Shown here one piece after another: positions 2,661 to 20,593 of a stretch of 22,863 bases of DNA. Source of the stretch: a virus. The notes under the pieces are model-generated. The model had not been told where the DNA came from. It saw only the letters and a program-made list of their open reading frames with translations, and did not search any database. Every line of letters starts with the position of its first letter. Position 1 is the stretch's first letter. The stretch spans positions 1-22,863 of IMG/VR virus record IMGVR_UViG_3300032665_000199, one strand, 5' to 3'. The translations under genes were made by a program, and so were the position numbers.

Positions 2661-2670
2661 ATTAAAATAT

Positions 2671-2895: not shown

Positions 2896-2904
2896 AAAAT
2901 TGTT

Positions 2905-3312: not shown

Positions 3313-3320
3313 TTGTTACT

Positions 3321-3371
3321 GTTAATTTCTTAACTTGTATCTATTGTAACACTAACATCATTTCTTTGCAA
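3321..3371 (-). promoter_or_regulatory. Sigma70-like promoter plus 5' hairpin module (copy 2)
   Basis: Leftward -35 TTGCAA (3366-3371), a 17-bp spacer and -10 TACAAT (3343-3348), then GTTAAGAAATTAAC (3321-3334). The promoter body closely matches the one at 1254-1282 (shared AAATTTG and AAATGATGTTA). It would drive the structured region and the Asp to Tyr tRNA string. Confidence 0.75.
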
Positions 3372-3418
3372 ATTTGGTGTTGTTATTACGCTACACACTT
3401 GTTATCTCAATTAACTTA

Positions 3419-3469
3419 GTTAATTTCTTAACATGTCTCTATTATAGCGGAGTATTCATTTCTCCACAA
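3419..3469 (-). promoter_or_regulatory. Sigma70-like promoter plus 5' hairpin module (copy 3)
   Basis: Leftward -35 TTGTGG (3464-3469), a 17-bp spacer and -10 TATAAT (3441-3446), followed by GTTAAGAAATTAAC (3419-3432). It is tandem to copy 2, about 98 bases upstream of it, and divergent from the oxygenase gene that starts at 3506. Confidence 0.75.
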
Positions 3470-3505
3470 ATTTTGAGTTGCATAAAAACAACAGTTAAAT
3501 ACTCT

Positions 3506-4252
3506 ATGAACATTAAAGTAATAGATAATACAGTTCCGCTAGAACTGCGAACTAGTGTTTGGGAATATATTTTAAACCAAACTTGGTATATAAAGTACAA
3601 GCAGGATTCATCAATTGACTCATACATACCTAATAAAGAAGGTATAGATATACCTAACAAAAATCCCGTAGCAACTGGCGGTACTACTCTGGCAAGAACG
3701 CCTTTTGCAAAAGATGTGCATTATTTAAAAGCCAAGCACCGGATAATTTATAATCTTTGGGAGGTTATCAATAAATCATTAGGTAACCAATACGAGATAA
3801 CTGGGTATACAGAAGGAATGCCAGTACCCAGTAATTTCAAACATATCAAAACTTTAGTGCCTGGGCTAACCGATGGGTGGCGGGTTTATACAAATTGTCA
3901 ATACCAAGAAAATATAAAACACAGTCACGGTATACACCGAGACAATCCTGATTTAAGCGATAGCTCTTCTGTGACTATTTTGTATGTTGCCAATTTGGAA
4001 TGGTATCCAAGTTGGTTTGCTGAATGTGTGTATTATAATGATGATGTGACTGGAGACGTGCAAAATTTCCAAGGTAAAGATATTGATGCGCAACAACGAA
4101 ATTTTAATTTAGGTTGGGCACAACAAATTGTAAGTCCGGTTCCCGGAAGGATTATTTGCTACGACAGTCGTACACTACATACTACTCGCCCGGCAGCCAT
4201 ATGGGCGCCTGGACCCAGAGTTACAATTGCATTTAGAGCACGTTTAAAATAA
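3506..4252 (+). CDS. 2OG-Fe(II) oxygenase family protein, 248 aa
   Basis: Likely an iron/2-oxoglutarate-dependent dioxygenase of the prolyl-4-hydroxylase-like phage type. H144-x-D146 (in GIHRDNP) is followed by a SSVTILYVAN strand. PVPGRIICYDSRTLHTTRP then carries the distal H225, and R238 lies in RVTIAFRARL at the C-terminus. The set matches HxD...H...R. The substrate is unknown; it could be a protein, a nucleotide or a small molecule. The ATG at 3506 is chosen although the frame stays open to 3374: the extra 44 codons run through the promoter modules of the opposite strand, and the MNIKVIDN start is typical. A TAAATACT motif ends two bases before the ATG with no ribosome binding site, as for the 1394 gene. 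It is followed immediately by tRNA-Ser on the other strand. The family call is good; the specific role is unknown. Confidence 0.82.
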   Translation: MNIKVIDNTVPLELRTSVWEYILNQTWYIKYKQDSSIDSYIPNKEGIDIPNKNPVATGGTTLARTPFAKDVHYLKAKHRIIYNLWEVINKSLGNQYEITGYTEGMPVPSNFKHIKTLVPGLTDGWRVYTNCQYQENIKHSHGIHRDNPDLSDSSSVTILYVANLEWYPSWFAECVYYNDDVTGDVQNFQGKDIDAQQRNFNLGWAQQIVSPVPGRIICYDSRTLHTTRPAAIWAPGPRVTIAFRARLK

Positions 4253-4253
4253 T

Positions 4254-4344
4254 TGGCGGAAGGCTAGAGAGTCGAACTCTAAAGGCGCTACTAACGCTCG
4301 ACGGTTTTCAAGACCGGTTCCATCGCCATTTGGATTGGCCTTCC
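4254..4344 (-). tRNA. tRNA-Ser (anticodon TGA)
   Basis: Acceptor GGAAGGC/GCCTTCC, anticodon loop CTTGAAA (anticodon TGA) in a CCGGT/ACCGT stem, a long variable arm, and T-loop TTCGACT. The discriminator is G and CCA is encoded (4254-4256). It lies downstream of a structured noncoding stretch in the leftward direction and overlaps nothing; the oxygenase stop codon is at its 3' edge. Confidence 0.92.
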
Positions 4345-5397: not shown

Positions 5398-6339
5398 TTA
5401 AGCGTTGCGGATGTTTTGAACTAATCCAGCGGTGAATGTGTCTTTGTGCATTTCGTAAACGATGGCAGTAGCTTCGGCAAAACGCTTTTGCTCTTCTGTG
5501 CTCATTTTGTTAACTGCGATACCATCAGCCAAACAACGATCTTGTACTAACTGAACATCTTCAATGCTCAACTCACGTTCGTGTTTGGCAGCGGCTTTTG
5601 CAGCATCACTAACGATTGTCTGTAACTCAGGAGTTAATGAATCCCATAGTTCACTTCCAATTAAGATACTGGTTAAGAATAAACTATGCTCAGTATGATT
5701 AATAACTGAAGATACTTTATCATGACCCAAGGCATAAACACGTGGATAGGTACTCTCACCAACAGTTACGTTAGATTGTGCTAAACCTTCTGATAACTCT
5801 TCTAATTCCATAGGAACTACGTCAGCACCAACTGCTTTGAATGTATCAATAGCAACAGGACTAAAACTTGTGCGAATCTTCATTCCCGTTAAGTCTTCAA
5901 TTTTGTTAACAACACCGTTACCAGCCATCATTCTGAAGCCACCCGAATATGTGAATGCCAATCCCTTGATCTTTTTACTGTTCTGTAAACTATCTAGTAA
6001 TCCTGTTCCCACTGAGCCCTCGAATACGCGACCAGCATGATCATGATCTTTAAACAAGAATGGTAAATCTAGCGCAAAGAAGTCTTGATTAATCTTACCC
6101 AATGTAATTGTATACGTTTGGCTCATTTCAATCTTACCCGAATCCAGTAAATCTACTAGTTCGTGTTTGCTAACTAAAACACCGTTGTTATACTTTTGCG
6201 AATATTCGCTTAAAGTCATAACTTCGATATCTAACGCCTGGGGCGCTTTTGTGTTTACTTCTGCGGCAAATACCTTTGCAGCACGGAGGAATAATTCAAT
6301 TGGTTCGTGGGCTAATACCCATCGTATTTTTTTTGTCAT
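5398..6339 (-). CDS. TRAP-type (DctP family) solute-binding protein without signal peptide, 313 aa
   Basis: The sequence has the layout of DctP/SiaP-type substrate-binding proteins. After an N-terminal strand with the conserved helix come SQTYTITLGKINQDFFALDLPFLF, then FTYSGGFRMMAG, the LTGMKIRT segment that carries the ligand-carboxylate-binding arginine in the family, GADVVPMELEEL, and a C-terminal helical part. Normally such a protein is exported and feeds an organic acid to a TRAP transporter. Here the protein starts MTKKIRWVLAHEP with no signal peptide; ATG 6339 is fixed by AAGGA about ten bases upstream. The longer open frame to 6501 would overlap the divergent gene and its promoter. 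No DctQ/M membrane subunits are visible. It therefore probably acts in the cytoplasm or in the virion as a small-molecule binder; the ligand is unknown. The family call is strong. Confidence 0.85.
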   Translation of the reverse strand: MTKKIRWVLAHEPIELFLRAAKVFAAEVNTKAPQALDIEVMTLSEYSQKYNNGVLVSKHELVDLLDSGKIEMSQTYTITLGKINQDFFALDLPFLFKDHDHAGRVFEGSVGTGLLDSLQNSKKIKGLAFTYSGGFRMMAGNGVVNKIEDLTGMKIRTSFSPVAIDTFKAVGADVVPMELEELSEGLAQSNVTVGESTYPRVYALGHDKVSSVINHTEHSLFLTSILIGSELWDSLTPELQTIVSDAAKAAAKHERELSIEDVQLVQDRCLADGIAVNKMSTEEQKRFAEATAIVYEMHKDTFTAGLVQNIRNA

Positions 6340-6415
6340 TTGGGGTTTCCTTATAGAATAGATAAGATTGTTACTATTATTTAGCATCAAAACACAAATA
6401 TTTATTTCTTTGTTG

Positions 6416-6433
6416 GATAAATACTCAAAAGGA
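6416..6433 (+). promoter_or_regulatory. T4-late-like promoter and ribosome binding site
   Basis: GATAAATACT (6416-6425) resembles the T4 late promoter core TATAAATA. AAAAGGA (6427-6433) lies seven bases before the ATG at 6440. These fix the start of the propeller gene. Confidence 0.6.
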
Positions 6434-6439
6434 TTCAGA

Positions 6440-7345
6440 ATGACTTGGACTACGGGCACGATAAACACCCCAGATAGCTGGAATAGTATAGCATATGGCA
6501 ACGGGGTATTTGTTACAGTCGCTAATATTAGTTCAAATAGTAGTTATAGCTCGGATGGCATAACCTGGTACCAGGGTGTAACTGAGTATGCAAGTCCCAG
6601 TAGATTCTTAACTAGTATCCTTCCGGTGAAAGCCTATTGGCAAAGTATTGCATATGGTAACGGTAAATTTTCTGCAATTGCCACAAATGCATATTCTGCA
6701 TTTAGTATAGATGGAAAAAACTGGAGTTTTAGTTCGTTACCCAATCCCAAAAATTGGCAGAGCATCACGTACGGTAATAATTATTTTGTGGTTGTAGGTT
6801 CAGGGTTCAATACAAAAATGGGCTATCCTTACGGTAATCGTGTCATGGCTTTTACCCCAGATCCACACGATTGGGCAAATAGCGTAATGGATGTGGGATT
6901 ACCTTGGACCGAAGTAGTTTGCGGTAATCATGGGTTTGTTGCTGTTACCAGCAACAGTAACGCAAGTTCTACAAGTACTCATGGGGCAAGTTGGATTACT
7001 ACGTACAATATGCCAGCAAATCAAAACTGGACCGGATTAACCTATGGTAGTAACAAATACGTAGCAGTTGCTGCCAATTCCAATGTTGCAGCCTATAGCA
7101 CCGATGGTGTTAATTGGACTGCAACTTCTTTACCCTCGGCAAGTCAATGGACTAGTGTGGCTTATGGTAATGGTACATTTATAAGTGTCGCTTATAATGG
7201 TGCCAATGCTGCAGTCAGTAGTGATGGCATAACTTGGCATTCAGAAACGATGCCGGCTACACAACCCTGGACTGCCATTACATTTGGACAGGATAGGTTT
7301 GTAGCCGTTGCTAGTAATACTACTGTAGTTGCGGTTAGGGTTTAA
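6440..7345 (+). CDS. Seven-bladed beta-propeller repeat protein, 301 aa (tail or adhesin candidate)
   Basis: Built of seven repeats of about 40 residues with the pattern W-xSIAYGNGxFVAVA-x-STDGxxW-x-LP. They start near residues 14, 68, 102, 151, 191, 234 and 276. The N-terminal MTWTTGTI matches the outer strand (ITWHSETM) that the last repeat lacks, so the ends can close a propeller in the velcro manner. Repeats with this Asp-box-like look are common in phage tail and receptor-binding proteins and in bacterial surface proteins; binding of a glycan or host surface is inference. Repeat 3 carries an insertion (about residues 116-142). There is no signal peptide. It has its own T4-late-like promoter and is the only rightward gene in this part. 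It converges with the glycosyltransferase gene, overlapping it by 11 bases. Confidence 0.8.
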   Translation: MTWTTGTINTPDSWNSIAYGNGVFVTVANISSNSSYSSDGITWYQGVTEYASPSRFLTSILPVKAYWQSIAYGNGKFSAIATNAYSAFSIDGKNWSFSSLPNPKNWQSITYGNNYFVVVGSGFNTKMGYPYGNRVMAFTPDPHDWANSVMDVGLPWTEVVCGNHGFVAVTSNSNASSTSTHGASWITTYNMPANQNWTGLTYGSNKYVAVAANSNVAAYSTDGVNWTATSLPSASQWTSVAYGNGTFISVAYNGANAAVSSDGITWHSETMPATQPWTAITFGQDRFVAVASNTTVVAVRV

Positions 7346-8168
7346 CTATACCGCCTAATTTTAATTCTTTTATGTTAGCCTGTATAAATTCGCGTAAGCC
7401 ATGCGGAACTAATAGGGAATCAAAATCAATTGTGGGGTTTTTTAGAAAGTGGTTGTTTCCATTACCGTTGTATAATTGTCTGATGGTGTCAATTAACGTA
7501 TCAACAGTCCATTCATTAATTTCATTTTCTTTTAAAAAATAAGTCTTGGAGTCTAGATGCATTATCATTGGTAAAATATTATTTCCTTTCCAAGGAAACA
7601 TTATAACAGGAACGGTCAAACAATGAGCCAAATGAGCCACCCCGCTCTCTAAACCAATAACACAATCGCAAAGATTGTTTATCAGATAAAATTTTTCATC
7701 TAAATTAGTATTGCTACTGTTTAAAGTTATAATATCATACCCGGCATCAATTGATAATTCTATTATTTTATCGATATCTTGTCTACCATAAGAATATTTT
7801 GACGGGATTAAGTTTAAATCAATATTTTGAGATTTGTTCAAGTAAACTAACCGAGCAAAATCAGTATCACCGGCTAATGCTATACCAATACAGGGTTTAT
7901 TTTTCTTTGGTGTCCCTGCCTTAATATAAGGGCTAAAAACTTTTGCATTATCGCATAAGCTATTGGAAAAATCAGTACTAATAGGTCTATTGACTACATT
8001 AACAAATATTTTGTTATCAGGAATTGAAAAAAGTCTTTTAAGATCATTTGGTGTTCGCCAATTTGGACTTACGTTAAATTGAAACGATTTATCTGTTGAT
8101 TGGACTAGACTGTATAACCCTATCACACTACCTAGCCCCATAACAGATAAATCGTATTCAAAATCCAT
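7335..8168 (-). CDS. GT9-like (heptosyltransferase-type) glycosyltransferase, 277 aa
   Basis: The C-terminal half has the nucleotide-sugar-binding domain signature of GT-B glycosyltransferase family 9: CIGIALAGDTDFAR near residues 93-106, then NNLCDCVIGLESGVAHLAH (165-182) and TVPVIMFPW. The N-terminal half is short compared with full heptosyltransferases of about 330-350 aa, so the acceptor domain is reduced. The sugar and acceptor are unknown; modification of the host surface or of phage proteins are both possible. The start ATG overlaps the TAA of the truncated ahpD remnant (TAATG), and a TAAATACT motif ends two bases before it. There is no classical ribosome binding site, so coupling to the former upstream frame or leaderless initiation is suggested. 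The fold is confident; the activity is inferred. Confidence 0.72.
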   Translation of the reverse strand: MDFEYDLSVMGLGSVIGLYSLVQSTDKSFQFNVSPNWRTPNDLKRLFSIPDNKIFVNVVNRPISTDFSNSLCDNAKVFSPYIKAGTPKKNKPCIGIALAGDTDFARLVYLNKSQNIDLNLIPSKYSYGRQDIDKIIELSIDAGYDIITLNSSNTNLDEKFYLINNLCDCVIGLESGVAHLAHCLTVPVIMFPWKGNNILPMIMHLDSKTYFLKENEINEWTVDTLIDTIRQLYNGNGNNHFLKNPTIDFDSLLVPHGLREFIQANIKELKLGGIVKP

Positions 8169-8287
8169 TAAGTATTTAACACCTTAGCGGCTGAATTAAT
8201 AACTGATGCAATACGTCCGATGTCACGTAGTTGCTCTACAGTATAACCCTCTTTCTTTAGTGTTTCATAATGAGCTTTAACACAGAA
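8168..8287 (-). pseudogene. Truncated ahpD remnant (C-terminal 39 codons)
   Basis: From 8287 the - strand encodes FCVKAHYETLKKEG and onward to a TAA at 8168. Aligned by eye to the last 39 residues of the intact AhpD, 31 of 39 are identical. The remnant begins at the Phe just before the second cysteine of the CxxC redox motif, one base after the stop codon of the HNH gene. It has no start of its own and is overlapped by TAATG with the glycosyltransferase gene. It looks like the 3' part of an older ahpD copy whose 5' part was replaced when the HNH gene arrived. Confidence 0.85.
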
Positions 8288-8288
8288 G

Positions 8289-8975
8289 TTATTCTTTAGA
8301 TTTACAATTATCGCCGTGCCAACGATTGAACATTCCAGAACTAACTGTCTTGCCACAATGTGGGCAGATTTTTTTGATTTGACTTGGGTGTGTTCCGTTC
8401 GCCAGTTGATTCTTTACAGACTTTCCGCCCAAAAAGTTATGACTGCCTTCTGCTACTCGTTTTTGGTTAGCCTTACGGGATACTTCCCCGCCCAAAAACG
8501 GATGTGTACCATTTTTAACTTTTACTAACTCTTTTTCGCGAGCCCAATCTTTATCTAAAAAAGTATGGGTGCCTTCTGCTATTCGTTTTAGATTTCGTTG
8601 TGATGCTTTTTCACTGTCTTGCCAATGATGCTCACCTGCTTCTACCAAACGCTGTTGTGTTTTCTTTTGTATCTCACCGCCTAAAAAATTATGAGTTCCG
8701 TTTTTTACCGCTTCAAGTGCCGCTAATCTTGATAACTCTGATTTTTCTTTTGGGGAAATATTTAATGCTCCAGAAATCAATAAACAAGCATACCAGTCTC
8801 CTTGACTGTAGTGTATGTCGTAATGTTCTTGAATAGATACTGCTTTGAGATTTAATGGATTGTTATTAGAGTGATCCCCATCAATGTGATGGATTTCAAA
8901 AGATCGTCCATCAGCATCAACAGGGATTTCACCGTAGTACTGTTTGTATATTTTTCTATAAGATCGGTCTCTCAT
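8289..8975 (-). CDS. HNH homing endonuclease, 228 aa
   Basis: The N-terminal part is an HNH nuclease of the phage type: YRKIYKQYYGEIPVD, then FEIHHIDGDHSNNNPLNLKA (catalytic HH and downstream Asn), then EHYDIHYSQGDWYA. It is followed by a repeated DNA-binding tail with units around NGTHNFLGG, EGTHTFLD, NGTHPFLGG, EGSHNFLGG and NGTHPS (about residues 90-205). The end is a zinc-finger-like CPHC...H...C at the C-terminus. Homing endonucleases of this type cut a conserved target in a relative lacking the element and spread by repair. Here it sits between an intact ahpD and an ahpD remnant. The start is ATG 8975 (MRDRSYRK); a TTG at 8990 would overlap the ahpD stop and a TAAATATT motif (8978-8985) that ends three bases before this ATG. 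No intron core is visible around it. Confidence 0.88.
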   Translation of the reverse strand: MRDRSYRKIYKQYYGEIPVDADGRSFEIHHIDGDHSNNNPLNLKAVSIQEHYDIHYSQGDWYACLLISGALNISPKEKSELSRLAALEAVKNGTHNFLGGEIQKKTQQRLVEAGEHHWQDSEKASQRNLKRIAEGTHTFLDKDWAREKELVKVKNGTHPFLGGEVSRKANQKRVAEGSHNFLGGKSVKNQLANGTHPSQIKKICPHCGKTVSSGMFNRWHGDNCKSKE

Positions 8976-8986: not shown

Positions 8987-9502
8987 TCAACTATTCAGCA
9001 CCTTTGCTAAACTATTAACCACAGCCGCTATTCTACCTATATCTCGTAACTGCTCAACAGTATACCCCATCTTTTTTAATCCATTATAATGGGCCGAGAC
9101 ACAGAACTCGCATTTTCCAACAATGCTTGCGGCAAGGCTATATGCCTCAAATCGTTCTTTAGTCGTACCACCGTGGGTTGTGATTGCGTTCATTCTGAGT
9201 TGAGCCGGAAGACCTTTAAGGTTAGCATCTTCTGCCATCTCTACATATGGATACCAAGTGTTGTTCATCGACATCAAAGATGCGGCAGTGAGTGCGGCAT
9301 CTCGCTCTTGTGAGTTTTCCATAGAACTTTGAATAAAGGTAACTAATTTCCCGTTACCTGTGCTCATTGCGGCGGCCAGCGCACAACCTTCTGCTTCCTC
9401 AACTGCTAGAGTACTACGCTTAATAACAGCGTCCAAGTTCAACTTAGTGTCCTTGGCGTACTCAGGCAGACCTTCTTTAAGTTGATCTACCCAGGCAGTC
9501 AT
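8987..9502 (-). CDS. ahpD: AhpD-like alkylhydroperoxidase, 171 aa
   Basis: Belongs to the AhpD/carboxymuconolactone decarboxylase-like family of all-helical disulfide reductases. The CxxC motif lies in GKCEFCVSAHYNGLKK near residue 130, with the general pattern C-x2-C-x2-AHxxxL, preceded by LRMNAITTHGGTTKERFE, the proton-relay region. In the known system (Mycobacterium) AhpD reduces AhpC using lipoyl-dihydrolipoamide dehydrogenase from the host. The start ATG 9502 overlaps the ahpC stop codon (TAATG), so the two are translationally coupled. The alternative start at 9541 lies inside ahpC. The length is typical. The 3' end is followed at once by the HNH gene, beyond which lies a truncated second copy of the ahpD 3' end. 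Detoxification of peroxides during infection is the likely role. Confidence 0.88.
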   Translation of the reverse strand: MTAWVDQLKEGLPEYAKDTKLNLDAVIKRSTLAVEEAEGCALAAAMSTGNGKLVTFIQSSMENSQERDAALTAASLMSMNNTWYPYVEMAEDANLKGLPAQLRMNAITTHGGTTKERFEAYSLAASIVGKCEFCVSAHYNGLKKMGYTVEQLRDIGRIAAVVNSLAKVLNS

Positions 9503-10041
9503 TATAAAGTCTCTCCGCCTACAGTTCTTGAACAGGCACAAAGTTCTCCCGTTTGTAAGGCATCTAAAATACGCAAGGTTTCTTCTGGACTGCGTCCAAC
9601 ATTTAGATTATTAACTGTGACATGTTGGATAACATTATCAGGATCGATAATAAATGTAGCTCTTAAAGGAGCACCAGCAGGTGCGTAAAATACGCCTAGT
9701 TGTTCGACTAAACTTAATTCTCCTCGTTGTGTATCGGCGAATTGTGTATGTGTGATTTTTTGTAGATCTGCGTGGGCTTTTTGCCAAGCTACAGCACAAA
9801 ATTCATTATCTGTGGATCCTGTTAAAAGAACAGCATCTCTATCAATAAAATCTTGATTCAATTTGTCATATCCTACAATTTCTGTGGGGCAAACAAAAGT
9901 AAATGATTTTGGATAAAACACGATTACTTTCCACTTGCCTTCGAAGCTAGTTTCATCAATATCAAAGAAAGCATCTTCTGGTTGTCCTGGCTTAACACCT
10001 GTTACTACAAAGTGAGTTAATTTATCGCCGATTGTTTTCAT
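9502..10041 (-). CDS. ahpC: AhpC peroxiredoxin, 179 aa
   Basis: A typical 2-Cys peroxiredoxin of the AhpC group. FYPKSFTFVCPTEIVGYDKL carries the peroxidatic cysteine (about residue 50) with the PxxxT/SxxC context, STDNEFCAVAWQKAH follows, and ALRATFIIDPDNVIQHV is the conserved strand. NLNVGRSPEETLRILDALQT leads to the resolving cysteine in GELCACSRTVGG at the C-terminus. It reduces hydrogen peroxide and organic peroxides and would be recycled by the adjacent AhpD. The wording of the sequence resembles beta-proteobacterial/actinobacterial AhpC. ATG 10041 has AGGAG six bases upstream and a long leader with a hairpin. It is expressed from the 10099-10127 promoter with ahpD. It is full length, and all catalytic cysteines appear intact. 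Confidence 0.93.
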   Translation of the reverse strand: MKTIGDKLTHFVVTGVKPGQPEDAFFDIDETSFEGKWKVIVFYPKSFTFVCPTEIVGYDKLNQDFIDRDAVLLTGSTDNEFCAVAWQKAHADLQKITHTQFADTQRGELSLVEQLGVFYAPAGAPLRATFIIDPDNVIQHVTVNNLNVGRSPEETLRILDALQTGELCACSRTVGGETL

Positions 10042-11955: not shown

Positions 11956-12711
11956 TTAGTTTTTAGCGAAACGCCAATCCTTGTCTAACCAAGTAAACAT
12001 CAAATCTTCTTGACGCACATAACCATAATTGTTTAAACTAGTTATTGCACTATCGTTTATTAGATTTAGATCTGCTAGATCAAACCAACTTGTACTTGCG
12101 GGCTCTAAGGGATCTGCACTTTTGTAAACTGCGAAATGCATCCAGGCGTTGTTGGTATCCATCCACACGTAACAATCCCTGCAATCAAATCCATTAACTG
12201 CTAACATATACATCAAATTACAGACATTGTAGTGATAATAGCATCCACTAATACTGCGAGTATGTATTCTGTTGTATTGATATGTTTGGTGTTGGGGCAG
12301 GCTTAAAACCAGCATACCGTTTGTATTCATCATCTGATTCCAGTTTTTAAGGGTGTTGAGAGGATTAAGTGCATACTGGAAACTGTTATGACTCCACATC
12401 AAATCAATGTTTACCGGTATTACTCGACCATCTTCAAAATTTGCCTGTATCGGGGTAATATTGGGCGTTTCTAATATTTCTGGCTCAATTTGTTTGATAT
12501 TGGTATCTACAGCAAAACATTTATATTCGTGCGGTTCTGGTGGATCATCTCTAGTTGTTAATTCGGCCCACCATTTTATATCCATTCCACTACCGCACCC
12601 CATATCAGCAACAGTACGAATACTATCCATGAAACTGTCATATTCATACAACAATGTTAATATCTGTTTACTATGATTATGACTATCTATTACATTTTTA
12701 AATTGATCCAT
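11956..12711 (-). CDS. Class I SAM-dependent methyltransferase, 251 aa
   Basis: A Rossmann-type methyltransferase. Motif I is TVADMGCGSGMD (residues 33-44), with the acidic end of strand 2 in KCFAVDTN. Motif IV/post-II is IDLMWSHNSFQYALNPLNTLKNW, followed by a NTNGMLVLSLPQ strand 5. The middle pattern (short-lived query of the form vwshnvl-l-p) matches the Methyltransf_11/23-like small-molecule, lipid or peptide methyltransferases rather than DNA methylases; no DPPY or NPPF motif is present. The C-terminal part has several tryptophans and tyrosines, possibly acceptor binding. The start ATG 12711 overlaps the end of the upstream 83-aa gene by 14 bases, so it is translated from the same mRNA as uvsY and the radical SAM genes. 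The substrate is unknown; the operon suggests the product of those enzymes. Confidence 0.82.
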   Translation of the reverse strand: MDQFKNVIDSHNHSKQILTLLYEYDSFMDSIRTVADMGCGSGMDIKWWAELTTRDDPPEPHEYKCFAVDTNIKQIEPEILETPNITPIQANFEDGRVIPVNIDLMWSHNSFQYALNPLNTLKNWNQMMNTNGMLVLSLPQHQTYQYNRIHTRSISGCYYHYNVCNLMYMLAVNGFDCRDCYVWMDTNNAWMHFAVYKSADPLEPASTSWFDLADLNLINDSAITSLNNYGYVRQEDLMFTWLDKDWRFAKN

Positions 12712-12949
12712 CTGTTAATATATCCAATACCACTGTTTGTTTAAATTTTTTAAGGCGGGGTTCAAGTTGGTGGCAGGCTTTGGCTATATCGTTTGGTTCA
12801 CCCCAGGCACGTTGTGTTGCTAAATGGCTTGCCCATATGGCACAACTTTCTTTTGCTATCTCAACGTCTAATGCATTATGGTACGGGCGTGCACGGCAAC
12901 AGGCATTGTACTCTGATAATAACTCATCTGCACGTTGATGCCAGTCCAT
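12698..12949 (-). CDS. Small protein, 83 aa
   Basis: MDWHQRADELLSEYNACCRARPYHNALDVEIAKESCAIW and onward: mostly helical, with three cysteines near the N-terminus (residues 17, 18, 34) and a basic C-terminal helix (EPRLKKFKQ). No family recognised. ATG 12949 shares its A with the uvsY stop codon (TAATG), and the end overlaps the methyltransferase start, so it is embedded in the operon. The frame is open further upstream to 13045, but that part overlaps uvsY. Tight packing supports that it is real. Confidence 0.72.
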   Translation of the reverse strand: MDWHQRADELLSEYNACCRARPYHNALDVEIAKESCAIWASHLATQRAWGEPNDIAKACHQLEPRLKKFKQTVVLDILTDGSI

Positions 12950-13401
12950 TATACTACCACATCCTCCATTCCTGCAGTTCTTAACCGAACCACATGTCCC
13001 AACATAAAGTTTTTGCTCTCTATACCCTTCATAACTCCCAACCATTTGTTACGCAACAATGCCACCTCATTGATAATTGTTTCCATGTCAATAACTTCAT
13101 CTTCGGCCTCTGCGTACTTCTCAGCATCTCTGCTAGTCAGCGCCCTTGCATAGGCTTCCAAATATTTTTTATAATATGTTTGTCTTATTTTGCGTAATTG
13201 TATATTTAAATAATTTAATACTGCCTCAATCTCTTGTAGTTGATTGAATCTGTGCTCAGTCAATCCCGGAAGATTGCTCAAAGCACGTTCTATATTTCCC
13301 TGTATCTTTATTTCGCCTTTAGCTGAGATTAATTCGGCTTCATAGTAACTTATAAAAGAAGGAATTTGCCCAAGGTCAGCTACAATTTTATTGTAAAACA
13401 T
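12949..13401 (-). CDS. uvsY: UvsY-like recombination mediator, 150 aa
   Basis: Resembles the UvsY of marine T4-like phages: a mostly helical protein with YYKKYLEAYARALTSRDAEKY in the middle and NEVALLRNKWLGVMKGIESK plus NFMLGHVVRLRTAGMED at the C-terminus. UvsY (about 137-150 aa) helps load the recombinase UvsX on gp32-covered single-stranded DNA, and both partners are encoded nearby. ATG 13401 lies 14 bases inside the end of the upstream radical SAM gene. It is separated from uvsX by a radical SAM gene and a 76-aa gene, which is not the arrangement in T4 itself. The family call is by similarity of the C-terminal part. Confidence 0.85.
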   Translation of the reverse strand: MFYNKIVADLGQIPSFISYYEAELISAKGEIKIQGNIERALSNLPGLTEHRFNQLQEIEAVLNYLNIQLRKIRQTYYKKYLEAYARALTSRDAEKYAEAEDEVIDMETIINEVALLRNKWLGVMKGIESKNFMLGHVVRLRTAGMEDVVV

Positions 13402-14644
13402 TCTTTAATACCTCGCTTAACCATGGAAAAGTCTTTTGCCAATTTAAATTTCTTCTTGAATCAATAGCATCTAAATATGCAACCAATTTTACTTGCAACT
13501 CGTGTTTGTTGATAGTGGTATTATTAGACAAAGTTTTACAGATACCATTGAGAGTCTGGCGTGTATTCTCAATATCAAACGAATCACCGATTAAGTATTC
13601 TTTTACTTTTTCTAAGTAAGGCTCCCATAACGAATATTCAAATGCACTTGCACTTAGTAGGTGCTGATCAATTGGTAGTGTTAAATGCATATACCAAGAT
13701 ATTGGTTTTGTTTTATTCCATTCAACAAACTTTTCTGCCAACAATGGCATACTTGTTATACTTAGACTATTTACAGTTGACAGTATACTTAATCTTAGAA
13801 AATCAAATTGTAGCAGATAATTAAAGTTACTATCAAATATATCACAATCAAATCCATATCTAACGTACTCTTGTTCAGGACCCCAACTATCAACGCTACA
13901 AAGTATATCTAATCTTTTTATTTTATGATCTTTATATAATTGTTCTAGTGAGTTTATACTCTTACGCAAATTGGCCGGTTTAACAATTAGATTTGTAATA
14001 ACGCTTAATTCTAATTTTGGATTAGGATGAGTGTTTATAAATTCAATTAATCGTTCAAAATCAGCCTGGATAAATGGCTCTCCGCCCAAAATATGCAATC
14101 TATGTAATTTCTCAAAATTTTTGTCTAGCCATTCCCACATCAATGGTGCCAACTCATTGTAATTATTTTTTGTTAATGTACTATTACTATTATCCAACAA
14201 TACGGATCCAAACTTTTTATTTTCTTTTTGTATGCTTGAACTAAAAGATTCGTTGCAGTACAAACAACTCAAATTACAAGTATTATTAAAAAATACTTCA
14301 AGTATAACTGGATTGATATTAGTTAATTTAGGATTAGTATTTAATTCCTGAGGGTAAACAAAAGGGATAGTATTTTGAAAGTTTCGATCACTGTACCCAC
14401 CCGAGTCTTCGATATTTTTACAATACTCACACCCAGCACCAGGCCAGTTACCTTCTAACATCTCTTGCCTTGCTTTTATTTTTTCAGGTAAATTATGAAA
14501 ATTAAAAAAATTTTCCTTATTGAGAGTACCAATGCTTGACCGATGACAACTAGCAGTTTTGCCGGTAGTTAGATATACTGTACTCCATGCCCATTTTAAT
14601 CTACAAGCTGTGTTAGTCTCGATTGGGAAATATTTGTTTGCCAT
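13388..14644 (-). CDS. Twitch/SPASM-like radical SAM protein, 418 aa (copy 1)
   Basis: A radical SAM enzyme with CxxxCxxC at C123, C127 and C130 (NNTCNLSCLYCNES) binding the SAM-reducing 4Fe-4S cluster, and the SAM-contacting GGEP at 187-190. Upstream of the core, C14, C33, C72 and C75 form a four-cysteine set of the twitch/SPASM kind, likely an auxiliary cluster, in N-terminal rather than the usual C-terminal position. SPASM/twitch enzymes commonly modify ribosomal peptides or other substrates by radical chemistry; the target here is unknown. The start ATG 14644 directly follows the TAG of the 76-aa gene. The C-terminus has a long extra helical domain (about residues 290-418) without recognisable motif. 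It is coupled to uvsY downstream. It is the longest of three related genes in the window, and the most AT-rich by eye. Confidence 0.88.
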   Translation of the reverse strand: MANKYFPIETNTACRLKWAWSTVYLTTGKTASCHRSSIGTLNKENFFNFHNLPEKIKARQEMLEGNWPGAGCEYCKNIEDSGGYSDRNFQNTIPFVYPQELNTNPKLTNINPVILEVFFNNTCNLSCLYCNESFSSSIQKENKKFGSVLLDNSNSTLTKNNYNELAPLMWEWLDKNFEKLHRLHILGGEPFIQADFERLIEFINTHPNPKLELSVITNLIVKPANLRKSINSLEQLYKDHKIKRLDILCSVDSWGPEQEYVRYGFDCDIFDSNFNYLLQFDFLRLSILSTVNSLSITSMPLLAEKFVEWNKTKPISWYMHLTLPIDQHLLSASAFEYSLWEPYLEKVKEYLIGDSFDIENTRQTLNGICKTLSNNTTINKHELQVKLVAYLDAIDSRRNLNWQKTFPWLSEVLKNVLQ

Positions 14645-14875
14645 CTAGTACTCGTTTTCGTCCTCGATTGATTCATTGTCGTCATCATTGACATATTCTT
14701 TAAAGGCTTTTGTGAGTATACCGTCTGTTCCACTAAAATGAGCAAGATCAACATCGTTTAACATGTCTACCATAACGCTCATTAAATTATCTGCGGCTTC
14801 TTGACGATCCTTAACTGGAATGTATTGTTTTAAAATTGTGTACGCTTCACCAAGTACTTCTATATCTATGCTCAT
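14645..14875 (-). CDS. Small acidic protein, 76 aa
   Basis: MSIDIEVLGEAYTILKQYI, a helical middle (DRQEAADNLMSVMVDML), then an acidic tail (EYVNDDDNESIEDENEY). ATG 14875 overlaps the uvsX stop (ATGA), indicating translational coupling. No family recognised; similar short acidic genes follow uvsX in marine T4-like phages as far as I recall, so an accessory role to recombination is possible. Confidence 0.72.
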   Translation of the reverse strand: MSIDIEVLGEAYTILKQYIPVKDRQEAADNLMSVMVDMLNDVDLAHFSGTDGILTKAFKEYVNDDDNESIEDENEY

Positions 14876-15939
14876 TCTTCGGTCACCTCTGCTGGTTGTG
14901 TTACTGCGGTTACATGGTGTGGATTTTCTGTATAGTCTTTCATAACTTTGTCAAGACATTCGTCTTCGTTACGTTCCCATGCTTTACGGAACTTTTTAAT
15001 AATAGTGCCGTCTGCTAGTGTATATTTAAGGCTATTACCTTCTTTAGATAATAAACCTTTACCCTCAATCATGTCAACTAAACCACTATAAGGATTCATA
15101 CCTGTTTCATAAGGGATCTTGACTTGCACTGATTCAAAGGGTTTGGCATAACGTGTTTTCATAATCTTACAAGCAGCCCTAATACCATTTACTTCTGAAA
15201 CCTTATTGCCATCTTCATCTTCTTTGAGTTTTAGTTTACGCATAGCAACTACAATACTACTTGCATAGATAAAGCCTTGTCCACCAGAGATCTTGTCATC
15301 TGGATCAAACATATCTTGGCTTGCGTATGTGTGTGCAGTTGTTACTAATCCAATGTTTAAGTTACCAAACATATTAACACAATTACGTACCAATGACGCT
15401 AGTGCTTTTGGCTTACGACCCATGTCACCCTTCATGTCACCAGCTTCAAACTGATTAACGTCTGTGGGTGTTAATAGCATACCTAAACTATCAACCACAA
15501 ATAAAACTTTTGGGCGCTCTCCTTCAGGTATCAATTTATATTCTTTAACAAATTCACTGATCATTTTAGCAACGTCGTCGATCATTGCCATGTTTAGTTT
15601 TAATAGTTTGTCTTCACTGGTGTCTACATTTAAATCATGCAACCATTTTTCATCTAAGGCATTCTCTGTATCAATAAGGATAACATATACCCCTGCTTTT
15701 TGAGCATTGGATACTAAATTACCTGAGCAGATAAAACTTTTACCAGCACCAGATTCTCCGGCAAACACAGTAACTTTGCCTAATGGTACTCCTTTATAAA
15801 AGTCCCCACTAATCAAATAATTTAGTGCATAGTTGTTTGTGCTGATCCAATCAGTAGGATCATTAAAGCCTACACTGATACCGTCAATGCTTTTTGTAAT
15901 TGATTTTCTAAATTTGCTTACGTCAAATGGTTTGCCCAT
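14872..15939 (-). CDS. uvsX: UvsX, RecA-like recombinase, 355 aa
   Basis: A RecA/RAD51 fold ATPase. Walker A is GESGAGKS (61-68), IDTENALD carries the catalytic Glu92, and Walker B is VLFVVDS (145-151). The L1-like region (GMLLTPTDVNQFEAGDMKGD) and the VTTAHTYASQDMFDPDD motif that follows are typical of UvsX, as is the C-terminal domain with KYTLADG. It catalyses homologous strand exchange in phage recombination-dependent replication and repair with gp32 and UvsY. The length is close to that of marine T4-like UvsX. ATG 15939 has TAAGGA about 11 bases upstream and overlaps the upstream radical SAM gene by 17 bases. Its stop overlaps the 76-aa gene. The product call is confident. Confidence 0.96.
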   Translation of the reverse strand: MGKPFDVSKFRKSITKSIDGISVGFNDPTDWISTNNYALNYLISGDFYKGVPLGKVTVFAGESGAGKSFICSGNLVSNAQKAGVYVILIDTENALDEKWLHDLNVDTSEDKLLKLNMAMIDDVAKMISEFVKEYKLIPEGERPKVLFVVDSLGMLLTPTDVNQFEAGDMKGDMGRKPKALASLVRNCVNMFGNLNIGLVTTAHTYASQDMFDPDDKISGGQGFIYASSIVVAMRKLKLKEDEDGNKVSEVNGIRAACKIMKTRYAKPFESVQVKIPYETGMNPYSGLVDMIEGKGLLSKEGNSLKYTLADGTIIKKFRKAWERNEDECLDKVMKDYTENPHHVTAVTQPAEVTEE

Positions 15940-17089
15940 AATTGCTTTCCTTAAGTTTATATAATTGTGTAAAAATTTTACTGCTGTCTAATCCACGCCT
16001 TTGATCTAATAGAGCTAACTGTCTAAATGAGTTTGGTAAGTTTGCTTCATAGGGCATTGTTACATAACTCAAAAGATTTTTATAACTATCTTCTAATAGA
16101 AATCCAGGTTTTTGTTTTATAAGATTAATCAGTTTTTCTTTAATTGATTGTAACTGATTTTTTGGCAAATGTCTAATATTTAGGTAATCCGGAGTCAGCA
16201 ATGCCCCAATTATAAAGCTATTATTATGAAACCCTAGCCCTTTAAGATATTCCACGCAGGTAAACATACTTTGATAGTTTAATAAAAAATATAGCATATT
16301 GAAGGATATTTTGTGATCAAGTCCCTTTATAGTATGCAAATTGTTCAAAAAGTCCTGCCAAGAGCCGCCATAACGAACATATTCGTATTCTTCTTCAATT
16401 GTCTCTACACTGACTGTCCAGTGTACGTTTTTAAACTTGCATACTAGATCAAAAATTTTAGTATCTATTTTACTTAGATTGGTGTTTATTCTCAAATTGA
16501 CGTTGGGGTCAAGTAAATCCAATAGCTCTAAATTTTCTTTCATCAGCAATGGTTCACCCCCAGCTAAGTAAACGTGTTTTAACTTCTTTGCATGGTTAAA
16601 TATGTATTCTTTAAAATCAGCTCGTTGTTGGTCAGTTGGTAATACCTGTGTAGTATTCAATTCACTTGCCCATCGGCTGCTAAATTTTGGGCTACAATAA
16701 ACACATGCTTGATTGCATAAATTAGTCCAACGAATATCCGTCGTGTATAAATCAAAATTTCCATCTTCGTATGTTTTTACCGGGATATCCTTTAATTCTC
16801 TTATGTAAAAAACACGATCGCTGATGATGTCAAAACCCTTTTTATTGTTTTCTAAATCTTTGCAGGTGTGGCAACTAGGCACTGGCAACTTGTTAATAAT
16901 CTTAGATTGTCTTGATTGATTTTCATCGCCTAGCAATATATCCCCAATGTTGTCAATTTTTATATCACCAATTGGCATAGTGTCAGCACTTCTTATACAA
17001 TTTTTAACAATGCCATCAAAATTATACATTAATCCAGTCCAGGGCACAGGGCAAAAATTGGAGTTAGTCAGCATATCTTTTGGGGTCAT
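15923..17089 (-). CDS. Twitch/SPASM-like radical SAM protein, 388 aa (copy 2)
   Basis: N-terminal SPASM-like part: CPVPWTGLMYNFDGIVKNC (C13, C31) and PVPSCHTCKDLE (C73, C76). This is followed by the radical SAM core with CNQACVYC (C125, C129, C132), LAGGEP at 175-180 and VRYGG near residue 240. The CPxxW start is typical of phage-encoded twitch-type radical SAM proteins. The C-terminal part holds long hydrophobic helices of unknown role. The start ATG 17089 overlaps the SDR stop codon (ATGA), and the end overlaps uvsX by 17 bases. The enzyme therefore lies on the uvsX mRNA between a cofactor-type reductase and the recombinase. The substrate is unknown; peptide, carbohydrate and nucleoside modification are all open. 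Confidence 0.88.
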   Translation of the reverse strand: MTPKDMLTNSNFCPVPWTGLMYNFDGIVKNCIRSADTMPIGDIKIDNIGDILLGDENQSRQSKIINKLPVPSCHTCKDLENNKKGFDIISDRVFYIRELKDIPVKTYEDGNFDLYTTDIRWTNLCNQACVYCSPKFSSRWASELNTTQVLPTDQQRADFKEYIFNHAKKLKHVYLAGGEPLLMKENLELLDLLDPNVNLRINTNLSKIDTKIFDLVCKFKNVHWTVSVETIEEEYEYVRYGGSWQDFLNNLHTIKGLDHKISFNMLYFLLNYQSMFTCVEYLKGLGFHNNSFIIGALLTPDYLNIRHLPKNQLQSIKEKLINLIKQKPGFLLEDSYKNLLSYVTMPYEANLPNSFRQLALLDQRRGLDSSKIFTQLYKLKESNYGQTI

Positions 17090-17595
17090 AATAATGATAT
17101 ATCCGGTATAGGTAAATTTTTATTTAATATATCAACTAGTTCCTGCGCCCATATTGCAGGATCGGTACCACCATCACCCTGGGTATTGATTTTCCCAGGA
17201 CGAACTATTGTGAGTTTAATCCCCAATCTCTGATGTCTCAGTTGTTTTACTGCTTCTTCCAACGCAATCTTTTGTGTACGATATTCTACCATACCCAACC
17301 CCGGTATTGTGGGCACAGGTTGTTGTGTCATCATTGTACTGATGTTAATAATATGTTTGCCGGTATTTTGCCACCGTTTAGCTACGTCAAAAAGCAATTC
17401 TGTTTGTGCAAACCCCACTTGTGCATTGTTGATAAACAGGTCACAGGGCTCTATCACACCTGCCAATTTGGGAATTATTCGAATGTTGTAGCCATTGCGT
17501 CTACTTAGACCCACAATCTCATGACCCTGAGATTGATATATTGTTGCCAATGCTTGACCTATTCCGGCACTGTGTCCTGTAATTGCTATTTTCAT
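17086..17595 (-). CDS. Short SDR-family oxidoreductase, 169 aa
   Basis: Short-chain dehydrogenase/reductase fold: the nucleotide-binding TGHSAGIG (6-13, pattern TGxxxGIG), NNA at 56-58, catalytic Ser86 (INIST) and YxxxK at Tyr105 to Lys109, then PGKINTQ. It would oxidise or reduce a hydroxyl/keto group with NAD(P). At 169 aa it is much shorter than the usual 250, lacking much of the region between the cofactor loop and NNA, though all catalytic residues remain. ATGA overlaps at both ends (with the 2OG gene upstream and the radical SAM gene downstream) place it in the same translational string. The substrate is unknown; it may act on the same molecule as the neighbouring radical SAM and 2OG enzymes. 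Confidence 0.82.
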   Translation of the reverse strand: MKIAITGHSAGIGQALATIYQSQGHEIVGLSRRNGYNIRIIPKLAGVIEPCDLFINNAQVGFAQTELLFDVAKRWQNTGKHIINISTMMTQQPVPTIPGLGMVEYRTQKIALEEAVKQLRHQRLGIKLTIVRPGKINTQGDGGTDPAIWAQELVDILNKNLPIPDISLL

Positions 17596-18062
17596 TTTAA
17601 TAATTCTATCGGTTCGTTATGGAATGTAAAACTTGCTATTATGCGCGGTAGATGATGTGCGTCTATTATTTCTACACTATGCTCAATTTGACTATTGAAC
17701 GCTATTGGCAACTTCATGTCCAGTAATTCTGCAACTAATACACCATCAACATACCATCGATTGGCCCATCCACTTGTATTGATTACTGGAAAATTAATTT
17801 TTGCGACTACAGGTAATTCATCTATATGTCTAGTCAAGTGCGAGTTATTTTCTACTAAGGTAATAGCAGCATGCCTAGGTATTAATTTATGTTGTTTAAA
17901 AAAATATTTTAATTCTGTATTTGTGGCCAATAGTTTTTTACAGTCAACAAAATTCCACCCGTATTTAAAATTGTTTGAATCTAAATCTTGTTTTATAAAA
18001 TCATATATATTGCTAGATATTTTATCAATCTCATTACACTCTAACTCTACAAAATATTTCAT
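17592..18062 (-). CDS. 2OG-Fe(II) oxygenase-like protein, 156 aa
   Basis: H79-x-D81 (LTRHIDELP), a conserved VAKINFPVINTSG strand-rich middle, distal H128 (NSQIEHSVEI) and Arg140 (LPRIIASFTF) fit the HxD...H...R set of iron/2-oxoglutarate oxygenases, of the aspartyl-hydroxylase-like kind. The spacing HxD to H is only 47 residues, so it is a compact version. It is cytoplasmic. The start overlaps the radical SAM stop (ATGA) and the end overlaps the SDR start (ATGA). The middle resembles the oxygenase at 1394 in pattern, but not closely in sequence. Confidence 0.68.
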   Translation of the reverse strand: MKYFVELECNEIDKISSNIYDFIKQDLDSNNFKYGWNFVDCKKLLATNTELKYFFKQHKLIPRHAAITLVENNSHLTRHIDELPVVAKINFPVINTSGWANRWYVDGVLVAELLDMKLPIAFNSQIEHSVEIIDAHHLPRIIASFTFHNEPIELLK

Positions 18063-18940
18063 ATATTTCTCAATTGTTTTTGTTCTTGTATATATCGGTC
18101 AATTGATGCTTGATCTTTATTATCCACGCTCAAAACTTCGGGACGCTTTAGATATGCGTATTCATGATCAATGTTGTGTTGTTTAGCGAATGCAATTATC
18201 TCAGGTAATTGATGTTGGTTTAGTACACTAACTGTGGTCCATAAATTTAGTCTTATGGGCATACTTTTATATATCATTAAATTTTCGTAAAACTCCGCCC
18301 ATTTGATGGGCCAACGCACAAAGTCATGTACTTCACCTATACCATCAAAACTCACTGTCACTGTGACTTTTATTCCTCGATATATAATAGGTAAAAGTTC
18401 TTGTAATACTGTACTACAGTTTGTATTAAGTCTTACACTTTTTACATTTGGTGGTAAGTTAGATAGTATGTGTTTATATTTTTTACTGTAGCTAGGTTCA
18501 CCACCATTTATATCTAAATGCTCTATCCTATCTAAAGGTAAACTCCAAAACTTATCAGAGTTATCTACTATAGGAAATTGGCGGCTTTTTAAACTACCTA
18601 TCTTTGTACTGAGTTGCTCACTACAAGTCATACAAGCACTATTGCAAGTATTGTCTAAGACTCCGCCCACAATCAAATAATCTTTACGAGTTTGTTCTTT
18701 GTGAAACTCCCAGGCATGTGTTCGGATACTTGTACCAGATTCTGTTTCAGTCTCTTGACATCTTACACATTCTCGGGGCCAAATGCCATTCATCATCTCT
18801 GCTTCTACATTTTGTCTCCAAAGGCTATGGTCCATTTCGTGAAGGCTTTGGAATTTGGGCGCACTAACCATATGACCACAACGACTAACCGTGCCGTCAG
18901 GATTGAATCTAACAAAATGTTCTAGTCTAGGACACCACAT
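18059..18940 (-). CDS. Twitch/SPASM-like radical SAM protein, 293 aa (copy 3)
   Basis: Starts MWCPRLEHFVRFNPDG and has the N-terminal four-cysteine set C3, C21, C58 and C61. The radical SAM core follows with CNSACMTC (C99, C103, C106), INGGEP at 144-149, TNCS near 173 and VRWP near 207. It is shorter than the other two, ending soon after the core barrel. ATG 18940 lies 19 bases inside the sulfotransferase end, and the stop overlaps the next gene (ATGA). Of the three it has the tightest auxiliary motif spacing. The reaction is unknown; the N-terminal cluster suggests a peptide or thiol ligand. Confidence 0.88.
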   Translation of the reverse strand: MWCPRLEHFVRFNPDGTVSRCGHMVSAPKFQSLHEMDHSLWRQNVEAEMMNGIWPRECVRCQETETESGTSIRTHAWEFHKEQTRKDYLIVGGVLDNTCNSACMTCSEQLSTKIGSLKSRQFPIVDNSDKFWSLPLDRIEHLDINGGEPSYSKKYKHILSNLPPNVKSVRLNTNCSTVLQELLPIIYRGIKVTVTVSFDGIGEVHDFVRWPIKWAEFYENLMIYKSMPIRLNLWTTVSVLNQHQLPEIIAFAKQHNIDHEYAYLKRPEVLSVDNKDQASIDRYIQEQKQLRNI

Positions 18941-19533
18941 AAGTCTTTACTTCTTTGAATTACTTCTTTATATAGTGCTGGATATTTGTGTTGCACGTGC
19001 GCACATATCTGATGAAAACTTGCGGTTTGCCCCATAAAATCTTCATATAAAACTTTGTCTAACATTAAATAGTAGTTTAATTTATGATTGTATTGGAAAC
19101 GATCTATTAGTGATTGATCTCTAGTCAATGTATTCCACATCTGGGTTGTTGTGTCTTTTAATTCATCAATGTGCTTAAATTGCAACCAAGCATCACTGTG
19201 CCTTGCTAAATTTACCACCCAATGAAACTGTAGACTAAAATGACTATTTAAAAATAAAAATCGTTCTATAAACTTTAACGCAGTCTCACGATCAAATTCT
19301 GGGTTATGATTCAAATAAGTTTGCACCCCGCTTACATACCTATCAAAAGGATCTCGTAGATATATTTGGATTGTTTTTATTTGATTGTGCTTATAATAGG
19401 GCACCTCCGCCAACGCAATTTGTGCAATCGTACTGCTGGCATTTTTATATATAGGATATACAAACTGACTTGGAGTCAATTCATATATCTTATATTGATC
19501 TGGAAATAATGTTGGATCTAAATATGATAGCAT
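18922..19533 (-). CDS. Sulfotransferase-like protein, 203 aa
   Basis: Resembles carbohydrate-type sulfotransferases (Sulfotransfer_2-like). The 5'-phosphosulfate loop analogue YPIYKNASST is at 26-35, with the lysine of the PAPS-binding loop. IYLRDPFDRYVSG (57-69) is the 3'-phosphate-binding segment with its Arg and Ser. The rest is helical. It would transfer sulfate from PAPS to a hydroxyl of a sugar or peptide. The start is ATG 19533; a frame to 19578 is open but would begin inside the gp32 terminator, giving an implausible N-terminus. It is the first gene of the long leftward operon after the gp32 terminator. It lacks an obvious own promoter, so read-through or a distant promoter is needed. 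Confidence 0.75.
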   Translation of the reverse strand: MLSYLDPTLFPDQYKIYELTPSQFVYPIYKNASSTIAQIALAEVPYYKHNQIKTIQIYLRDPFDRYVSGVQTYLNHNPEFDRETALKFIERFLFLNSHFSLQFHWVVNLARHSDAWLQFKHIDELKDTTTQMWNTLTRDQSLIDRFQYNHKLNYYLMLDKVLYEDFMGQTASFHQICAHVQHKYPALYKEVIQRSKDLCGVLD

Positions 19534-19585: not shown

Positions 19586-20593
19586 TTAAGTTGTAGATTT
19601 ACGGTTTCTAATCATTGCCAAAATGTCTTCAGCTTTTTGGCTTGAAGCTTTTGGTGCAACTGGTGCCACTACTGGCTCACTTACTTCTGGAACATCATCT
19701 TCAACATCTGCTACTGGGGCAGGTGCTACTACTGCCAGTGTAGGTTTAGCCTGTGCAACTGGTTTAGCTTCGGGTAATGCATCTGCATCAACACCTTCAC
19801 CACCTTTAAAACCACTGGGCTTGTAGTAGTTTGCCCAACGATCTGGATCGTAAGGTTGCCCGTCTACACTTGCCTCAAACATTTCTTTGATCACTTTCAA
19901 TTCAACGTCTGTGGGTTGTTTTGGTAAGAAGTCATTTAGGTCATACAAACCAAACTTCTCAATCGCTTCTGCTTCATCAGCATTAAGAGCAGTTTCTTTA
20001 CGTGCCCATGTGGATGTGTTGTAGTCAGCATATCCACCTTTGCTTGTCTTTTTAATATTAAAGTCAAGTCCAGCGGCATAGTCTGTGGGTAAATTTTCCA
20101 TGTCTGGATCCATCAATGCGTTCTTGATCAAGTTAAAGATCTGTGGGCTAATGATAAATCTACGAATTGGGTTCTCGGGGCTCTTGTCATCACTAACTGG
20201 ATTCTCACGAACAAAGCCTTGGAACAAATAACTACGTTTCTTCCAATACTTACGACCCATTTCTTCCAAGTTAGCATCCTTAAACCAAGGACGTACCTCA
20301 GCTAGGATTGGACATGCGCCACCGTACATTTCCATACAGGGAACTTGTACTGTAACTGGTTTGCTGTCTGCTTGACCTTTAATACCTGCAAATGGTAAAC
20401 GAATCATTGCACGTTCTACCCAAAAGAAGGAATTTTTTGTGTTTGCGTCGGGAAGGAATCTTACGCGAGCTGTTGTGTTTTCTGGAATGTTCCAGTGTGC
20501 GTAGATTGCGTTGTCGCCTTGTGATTTACCACTTGATCCGCGGTTCTCGTTGGCTTGTAGTTTTGCTCTAATTTCTGCTAGTGTCATGGCCAT
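19586..20593 (-). CDS. gp32: gp32 single-stranded DNA-binding protein, 335 aa
   Basis: The single-stranded DNA-binding protein of T4-like phages, which coats DNA in replication and recruits UvsX and UvsY. The N-terminal basic LAST-like segment (MTLAEIRAKLQANENRG) mediates cooperativity. The OB-fold core carries FFWVERAMIRLPF, KPVTVQVPCMEMYGGACPI, RPWFKD and KYWKKRSYLFQGFV. The C-terminal half is acidic and Pro/Ala-rich (EVSEPVVAPVAP). Only two cysteines (86, 94) are seen in the region of the T4 zinc site (H64, C77, C87, C90), so zinc binding seems reduced or absent. The start at 20593 has AGGAG eight bases upstream. It is its own unit from the promoter at 20652 to the terminator at 19540. Confident call. 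Confidence 0.95.
   Translation of the reverse strand: MAMTLAEIRAKLQANENRGSSGKSQGDNAIYAHWNIPENTTARVRFLPDANTKNSFFWVERAMIRLPFAGIKGQADSKPVTVQVPCMEMYGGACPILAEVRPWFKDANLEEMGRKYWKKRSYLFQGFVRENPVSDDKSPENPIRRFIISPQIFNLIKNALMDPDMENLPTDYAAGLDFNIKKTSKGGYADYNTSTWARKETALNADEAEAIEKFGLYDLNDFLPKQPTDVELKVIKEMFEASVDGQPYDPDRWANYYKPSGFKGGEGVDADALPEAKPVAQAKPTLAVVAPAPVADVEDDVPEVSEPVVAPVAPKASSQKAEDILAMIRNRKSTT

Follow-up and report, generated by a model that had tools for sequence, protein, structure and literature searches.

We describe here a conserved gene cassette that lies between the genes for a gp32-type single-stranded DNA (ssDNA)-binding protein and the recombinase UvsX in a viral genome fragment, IMG/VR record IMGVR_UViG_3300032665_000199. 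The entire record, 22,863 bases long, was analyzed and is referred to as the window. The cassette encodes, in order, a sulfotransferase-like protein (ST), a radical S-adenosylmethionine (SAM) enzyme (RS3), in some phages an Fe(II)/2-oxoglutarate-oxygenase-like protein (2OG), a short-chain dehydrogenase (SDR) and a further radical SAM enzyme (RS2). With moderate confidence, we propose that it is an exchangeable unit of giant phages that are known from metagenomes and related to RaK2, GAP32 and Paride, and that its enzymes act in sequence on one product, for which we favor a carbohydrate. The cassette and its two flanks occupy the following positions, with lengths in amino acids (aa):

19586-20593, minus strand: gp32-type ssDNA-binding protein, upstream flank (48% identity to the Paride protein)
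18922-19533, minus strand: ST, sulfotransferase-like P-loop protein, 203 aa, cassette gene 1 (motifs, weak Pfam matches, BFVD fold match)
18059-18940, minus strand: RS3, N-terminal-twitch-type radical SAM enzyme, 293 aa, cassette gene 2 (NF033640, 136 bits)
17592-18062, minus strand: 2OG, Fe(II)/2-oxoglutarate-oxygenase-like protein, 156 aa, optional cassette gene (invariant residues)
17086-17595, minus strand: SDR, compact short-chain dehydrogenase, 169 aa, cassette gene (Pfam adh_short)
15923-17089, minus strand: RS2, N-terminal-twitch radical SAM enzyme, 388 aa, cassette gene (NF033640, 235 bits)
14872-15939, minus strand: uvsX recombinase, downstream flank, backbone (phrog_97, E 1.4e-66)

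The cassette is present or absent as a whole. At least 600 viral matches to uvsX exist, many of the contigs being fragments; among the 80 best, 71 loci held both gp32 and uvsX. The slot between these two genes contained none of the set in 62 of the 71 loci and all of ST, RS3, SDR and RS2 in the other nine, an all-or-nothing pattern (Fisher, 1e-11, uncorrected for relatedness). The four core genes stood in a single order in 9/9 of these loci, five of which also carried 2OG. Searches anchored on RS3 added 77 new loci; ST was directly upstream of RS3 in 76, and the remaining locus is cut by the end of its contig. Gene junctions were conserved as well. ST and RS3 overlap mostly by 14, 19 or 20 nucleotides (nt), RS3 and SDR by 4 nt in 59/63 loci and SDR and RS2 by 4 nt in 71/89, and ST usually begins 3 nt from gp32. 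These overlaps fit translational coupling, and the cassette is probably co-translated with the replication-recombination genes. Moreover, the distances among cassette proteins correlate with one another beyond what uvsX accounts for (partial r 0.43-0.64).

The cassette is also modular, and it has been gained or lost repeatedly. Rare exceptional loci divide it into two sub-modules, ST+RS3 and SDR+RS2. Specifically, ST-RS3 directly precedes uvsX in three loci (L220, L250 and L267), RS2 is missing from ST-RS3-2OG-SDR in L258, RS2 stands alone in L132, and five loci (L101, L144, L152, L156 and L159) keep SDR-RS2 and have ST-RS3 replaced by a 184/185-aa protein and a 345/347-aa radical SAM enzyme. 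Mapped onto the uvsX tree, cassette presence changes 21 times, at least 12 of them on supported branches. The gp32-uvsX junction serves giant phages as a slot in which tailoring modules are exchanged. Its other occupants include a 272-aa protein, accompanied in some loci by a radical SAM enzyme, and sets in which proteins of unknown family are combined with either an SDR or a formyltransferase. In the isolates CBB and Phosso the ssDNA-binding protein gene, unnamed in the Phosso annotation, directly adjoins uvsX, and in Paride the gene that follows it is also UvsX-like, split in the annotation. In locus L002 (2395-4369) and its relatives, the slot holds the 272-aa protein, itself of unknown family, together with a different radical SAM enzyme; by eye, a 360-aa protein beside a radical SAM gene in contig G001 resembles the 272-aa protein.

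All three radical SAM enzymes of the window (RS2, RS3 and RS1, the last encoded outside the cassette) have the conserved CxxxCxxC motif of the superfamily and resemble NF033640 (N_Twi_rSAM, twitch domain-containing radical SAM), a subfamily-level model with a cut-off of 170 bits. RS1 (227.1 bits) and RS2 (235.0 bits) exceed the cut-off along almost all of their own sequence and are members; RS3 (136.3 bits) is a shorter, weaker relative that falls below it. The original prediction, made on this window before the present analysis, had given the three a shared twitch/SPASM-like layout. The kinship holds, with RS3 as the outlier, but the twitch domain is N-terminal, unlike the usual C-terminal SPASM/twitch arrangement. 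The active-site residues are intact: in RS3 the cluster cysteines C99/C103/C106 and the N-terminal C3/C21/C58/C61 are invariant in 37 sequences, in RS2 C125/C129/C132 and C13/C31/C73/C76 are invariant in 41, and the cluster cysteines are likewise invariant in the alignment of RS1 relatives. RS2 also matches Pfam Radical_SAM (60 bits). Its predicted structure (mean pLDDT 82) matches SkfB, anSME, BlsE and AprD4, among others, at low TM-score, so the fold does not single out a substrate class. Residues 12-82 of RS2 align with the auxiliary-cluster twitch domain of BtrN, a 2-deoxy-scyllo-inosamine dehydrogenase (E 0.0045), a weak similarity in which the domain order is reversed (N-terminal in RS2) and the substrate need not match. 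A viperin (pVip) or defense identity was rejected, with RS1, RS2 and RS3 scoring 29.6, 31.9 and 15.7 bits against an equivalog cut-off of 180 and with PADLOC matches that are weak and superfamily-level. An RS2 profile run against bacterial and archaeal genomes confirmed no relative, and isolate phages gave no match to RS2, ST or SDR. RS1 and RS3 had weak matches in isolates only to Vibrio phages, mostly KVP40-type, and RS1 also to one marine virus fragment.

The partner enzymes likewise retain their key residues. In ST, K30, R60, R65 and S68 are invariant in 38 relatives, consistent with motifs that bind 3'-phosphoadenosine-5'-phosphosulfate (PAPS). Six of the 38 family members match Pfam Sulfotransfer_2 weakly (best E 0.017); the ST of the window itself has no curated Pfam match. 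Its predicted fold resembles a BFVD model of a phage protein labeled 'Sulfotransferase family' (TM 0.94, 53% identity), and neither a profile sequence search nor a fold search of the PDB returned a match. In 2OG, the HxD...H iron triad (H79, D81 and H128) and the 2-oxoglutarate-binding R140 are invariant in 18 sequences, five of which match Pfam Asp_Arg_Hydrox weakly (best E 0.0065). The 2OG protein of the window has no 2OG-oxygenase Pfam match, and the 2OG profile found nothing among PDB sequences. SDR scores 32.1 bits with Pfam adh_short (cut-off 26.6), and TGHSAGIG and YRTQK, read in the window sequence, correspond to the TGxxxGIG and YxxxK motifs, bearing out its earlier identification.

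In the window, the cassette forms part of a longer leftward string, the remaining members of which are:

14645-14875, minus strand: s76, 76-aa backbone protein (present in 30/54 cassette-less loci with uvsX and uvsY)
13388-14644, minus strand: RS1, N-terminal-twitch radical SAM enzyme, 418 aa, separate insert between s76 and uvsY (NF033640, 227 bits)
12949-13401, minus strand: uvsY recombination mediator, backbone (phrog_231, E 1.1e-14)
12698-12949, minus strand: s83, 83-aa backbone protein (present in seven cassette-less loci)
11956-12711, minus strand: MT, class I SAM methyltransferase-like protein, backbone (Methyltransf_11; present in 20 cassette-less loci)

The gene calls at 11956-19533 hold, with eleven genes all on the minus strand, so the string of near-universally overlapping genes described originally was confirmed; the gene order recurs in L081-L084, contigs that other assemblies yielded for this phage, with shared genes 100% identical. 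The ATG at 19533 proposed as the ST start is the conserved one, the mechanical open reading frame (ORF) beginning 45 nt upstream. ST and RS3 overlap by 19 nt, ATGA overlaps join RS3/2OG, 2OG/SDR, SDR/RS2 and uvsX/s76, RS2 and uvsX overlap by 17 nt, the TAG stop of s76 directly abuts the RS1 ATG, RS1/uvsY and s83/MT each overlap by 14 nt, and uvsY/s83 is a TAATG junction. The uvsX and uvsY assignments stand on their phrog matches, and MT scores 22.1 bits with Pfam Methyltransf_11 (cut-off 21.2). The window gp32 had no match in a Pfam search; along its entire length it shares 48% identity with the protein annotated as ssDNA-binding in Pseudomonas phage Paride.

The single pathway first proposed for all enzymes of the string thus narrows to ST, RS3, SDR, RS2 and often 2OG, and does not extend to RS1, MT, uvsX, uvsY or the small proteins. 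Three radical SAM genes occurring singly and independently in related phages would have spoken against any joint pathway; RS2 and RS3 instead co-occur with their partners, whereas RS1 occurs with or without the cassette and sits in a different slot, between s76 and uvsY. As a cassette member RS1 was rejected, its raw association not being significant in phylogenetically independent pairs. MT, uvsX, uvsY and the 76-aa and 83-aa proteins occur in cassette-less loci and are therefore backbone.

The gene set supports stepwise tailoring of a single product, probably a sugar or similar compound made during infection. A carbohydrate is suggested by the operon and genome context, by the sulfotransferase-like enzyme and by earlier phage radical SAM cassettes near glycosyltransferases (PMC7029224). 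Downstream of MT, many relatives carry a fusion of CTP_transf_like and MannoseP_isomer domains, in some followed by GT8 and GT25 genes. The formyltransferase and the SDR among the alternative inserts of the slot also count toward this context, as do the RS2 fold matches to BlsE and AprD4. Relatives are rich in NF033640-type enzymes: three contigs, 145, 261 and 180 kb long, bear 15, 13 and 10 matches, respectively. Arrays of five radical SAM genes occur in G001 (the contig of L118; 13762-23091) and G016 (the contig of L245; 3285-11743), whose whole contigs hold 15 and 10 matches; both adjoin apparent tail-type genes, and one array region also holds genes for a nucleoside diphosphate-sugar epimerase, a DegT aminotransferase and a carbamoyltransferase. 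The window itself has a weak GT9/heptosyltransferase-like gene at 7335-8168 (18.3 bits, cut-off 22).

Several points weigh against the carbohydrate proposal. The CTP_transf_like-MannoseP_isomer fusion was found in 22/33 loci with the cassette and 15/27 without it; it was thus rejected as a cassette-specific feature, and, being no commoner with the cassette, it links glycans to the operon rather than specifically to the cassette. The cassette itself lacks glycosyltransferase and sugar-nucleotide genes, the peptide maturases SkfB, anSME and SuiB are also among the fold matches of RS2, and we found no NF033640 member with a known function. The ST and 2OG assignments are putative, drawn from motifs and weak profiles plus, for ST, the viral structure match.

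Under the carbohydrate proposal, we infer each reaction, the reaction order, the substrate and the benefit as follows. The radical SAM enzymes would carry out difficult C-H changes of an oxidation, epimerization or dehydration type, SDR a stereospecific NAD(P)H redox step and the optional 2OG enzyme a hydroxylation, while ST would transfer sulfate from PAPS onto a hydroxyl. The target may be a carbohydrate, either in a glycan of the host surface or attached to virion proteins, and the modification could make infected cells or virions distinct from those of competing phages. More tentatively, this may be a phage-specific biosynthetic chemistry, for which isolates yielded no counterpart, in which N-terminal-twitch radical SAM enzymes, each with a dedicated partner (a sulfotransferase, a dehydrogenase or others), serve as interchangeable modules through which giant phages vary a sulfated, radically modified product.

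The rival that survives best, although we judge it unlikely, is that a peptide or protein is the target of the cassette, either as in ribosomally synthesized and post-translationally modified peptide (RiPP) pathways or through post-translational modification of a protein from phage or host, for example a virion or replication protein. Twitch/SPASM-type architecture and fold matches to SkfB, anSME and SuiB are typical of peptide-modifying radical SAM enzymes, and 2OG weakly matches Asp/Asn hydroxylases. What weakens this explanation is the lack of a precursor gene beside the presumed maturases: as first noted for the window, none is obvious, and the cassette junctions, mostly overlaps or gaps of a few nt, provide no room for one, although a distant precursor is possible. 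The 76-aa and 83-aa proteins, originally named as the only short candidates, lost that standing because both occur without the cassette. UvsX, UvsY and gp32 were rejected as modified substrates, since no residue distinguishes phages with the cassette from those without it (frequencies differ by at most 0.59) and none thus bears a cassette-linked signature.

It seems improbable that the cassette serves to protect phage DNA through synthesis or decoration of a modified nucleoside or DNA base. Such a role would account for its place between the ssDNA-binding protein gene and uvsX, radical SAM, 2OG and SDR enzymes are able to act on nucleosides, and the RS2 fold matches BlsE. However, ten related contigs of 48-261 kb, which are perhaps incomplete, encode no protein of the thymidylate-synthase/hydroxymethylase family, which weakens the explanation. 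DNA is not known to be modified by sulfotransferases.

Somewhat less probable still is unrelated single-gene cargo collected at recombination hot spots beside core genes, with no joint pathway. The slot does take many different inserts, radical SAM genes also occur singly by putative gp46/gp47, gp43 and uvsW-like genes, and RS2 stands alone at one locus and ST-RS3 at three. For ST-RS3-SDR-RS2, this explanation is nevertheless largely refuted by the fixed order of the four genes at all nine cassette-bearing uvsX-anchored loci, by the conserved overlaps and by the constant pairing of ST with RS3 wherever the contig permits; for RS1 it is plausible. The least probable product is a redox cofactor or a small molecule that diffuses, whether resembling an antibiotic or aiding host takeover. 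The enzyme mix resembles small-molecule tailoring sets, BlsE, AprD4 and BtrN being radical SAM enzymes of antibiotic pathways. Against this, the cassette has no scaffold-forming enzyme, and no transporter or resistance gene was seen in it.

Elsewhere, the window encodes a TRAP-type solute-binding protein at 5398-6501 (DctP, 167.5 bits); G002 encodes a TctC-type receptor and L026 a protein that, as read from its sequence, looks similar. Such phage-encoded solute-binding proteins hint at proteobacterial hosts. At 8987-10041, an AhpC-type peroxiredoxin lies beside an AhpD/CMD-like protein, a pair also present in the relative L026. A 62-aa ORF at 8168-8356, across an HNH endonuclease gene from the CMD-like gene (8987-9541), appears similar to the C-terminus of the latter protein, which may reflect a partial duplication or the interruption of a gene by the HNH gene. 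Twelve tRNA genes lie at 650-4344.

These results provide a defined enzyme set with which to test a large phage radical SAM family for which we found no known function, and a core replication gene junction acting as an exchange slot makes the use of these enzymes in radical SAM-rich phages directly testable. The string had been put forward as the best candidate for an undescribed system. That description stands for the cassette itself, since the open-access literature, with most subscription papers outside the search, contained no description of it, its slot or its sub-modules; it does not extend to radical SAM-rich T4-like phages or exchangeable radical SAM cassettes, which have been reported (PMC5332604, PMC7029224). 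KVP40-like Vibrio phages carry several radical SAM proteins per genome (moaA/nifB/pqqE proteins). These resemble RS1 and RS3 weakly, at about 21-30% identity across part of the protein, and have another locus and other partners. A T4-like environmental viral genome reported in 2017 has 12 radical SAM genes, discussed together with Fe-S cluster assembly (PMC5332604); it resembles the present phages in its many radical SAM genes, and the relevant passage of that report describes no cassette structure. A further parallel is in pelagimyophages (2020), in which radical SAM genes are likewise gained or lost as cassettes, within host-recognition clusters in a region with lipopolysaccharide-type glycosyltransferases (PMC7029224). 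Those cassettes lie in a tail-fiber island, whereas the cassette described here occupies the gp32-uvsX junction, has ST and SDR as partners and belongs to a different phage lineage.

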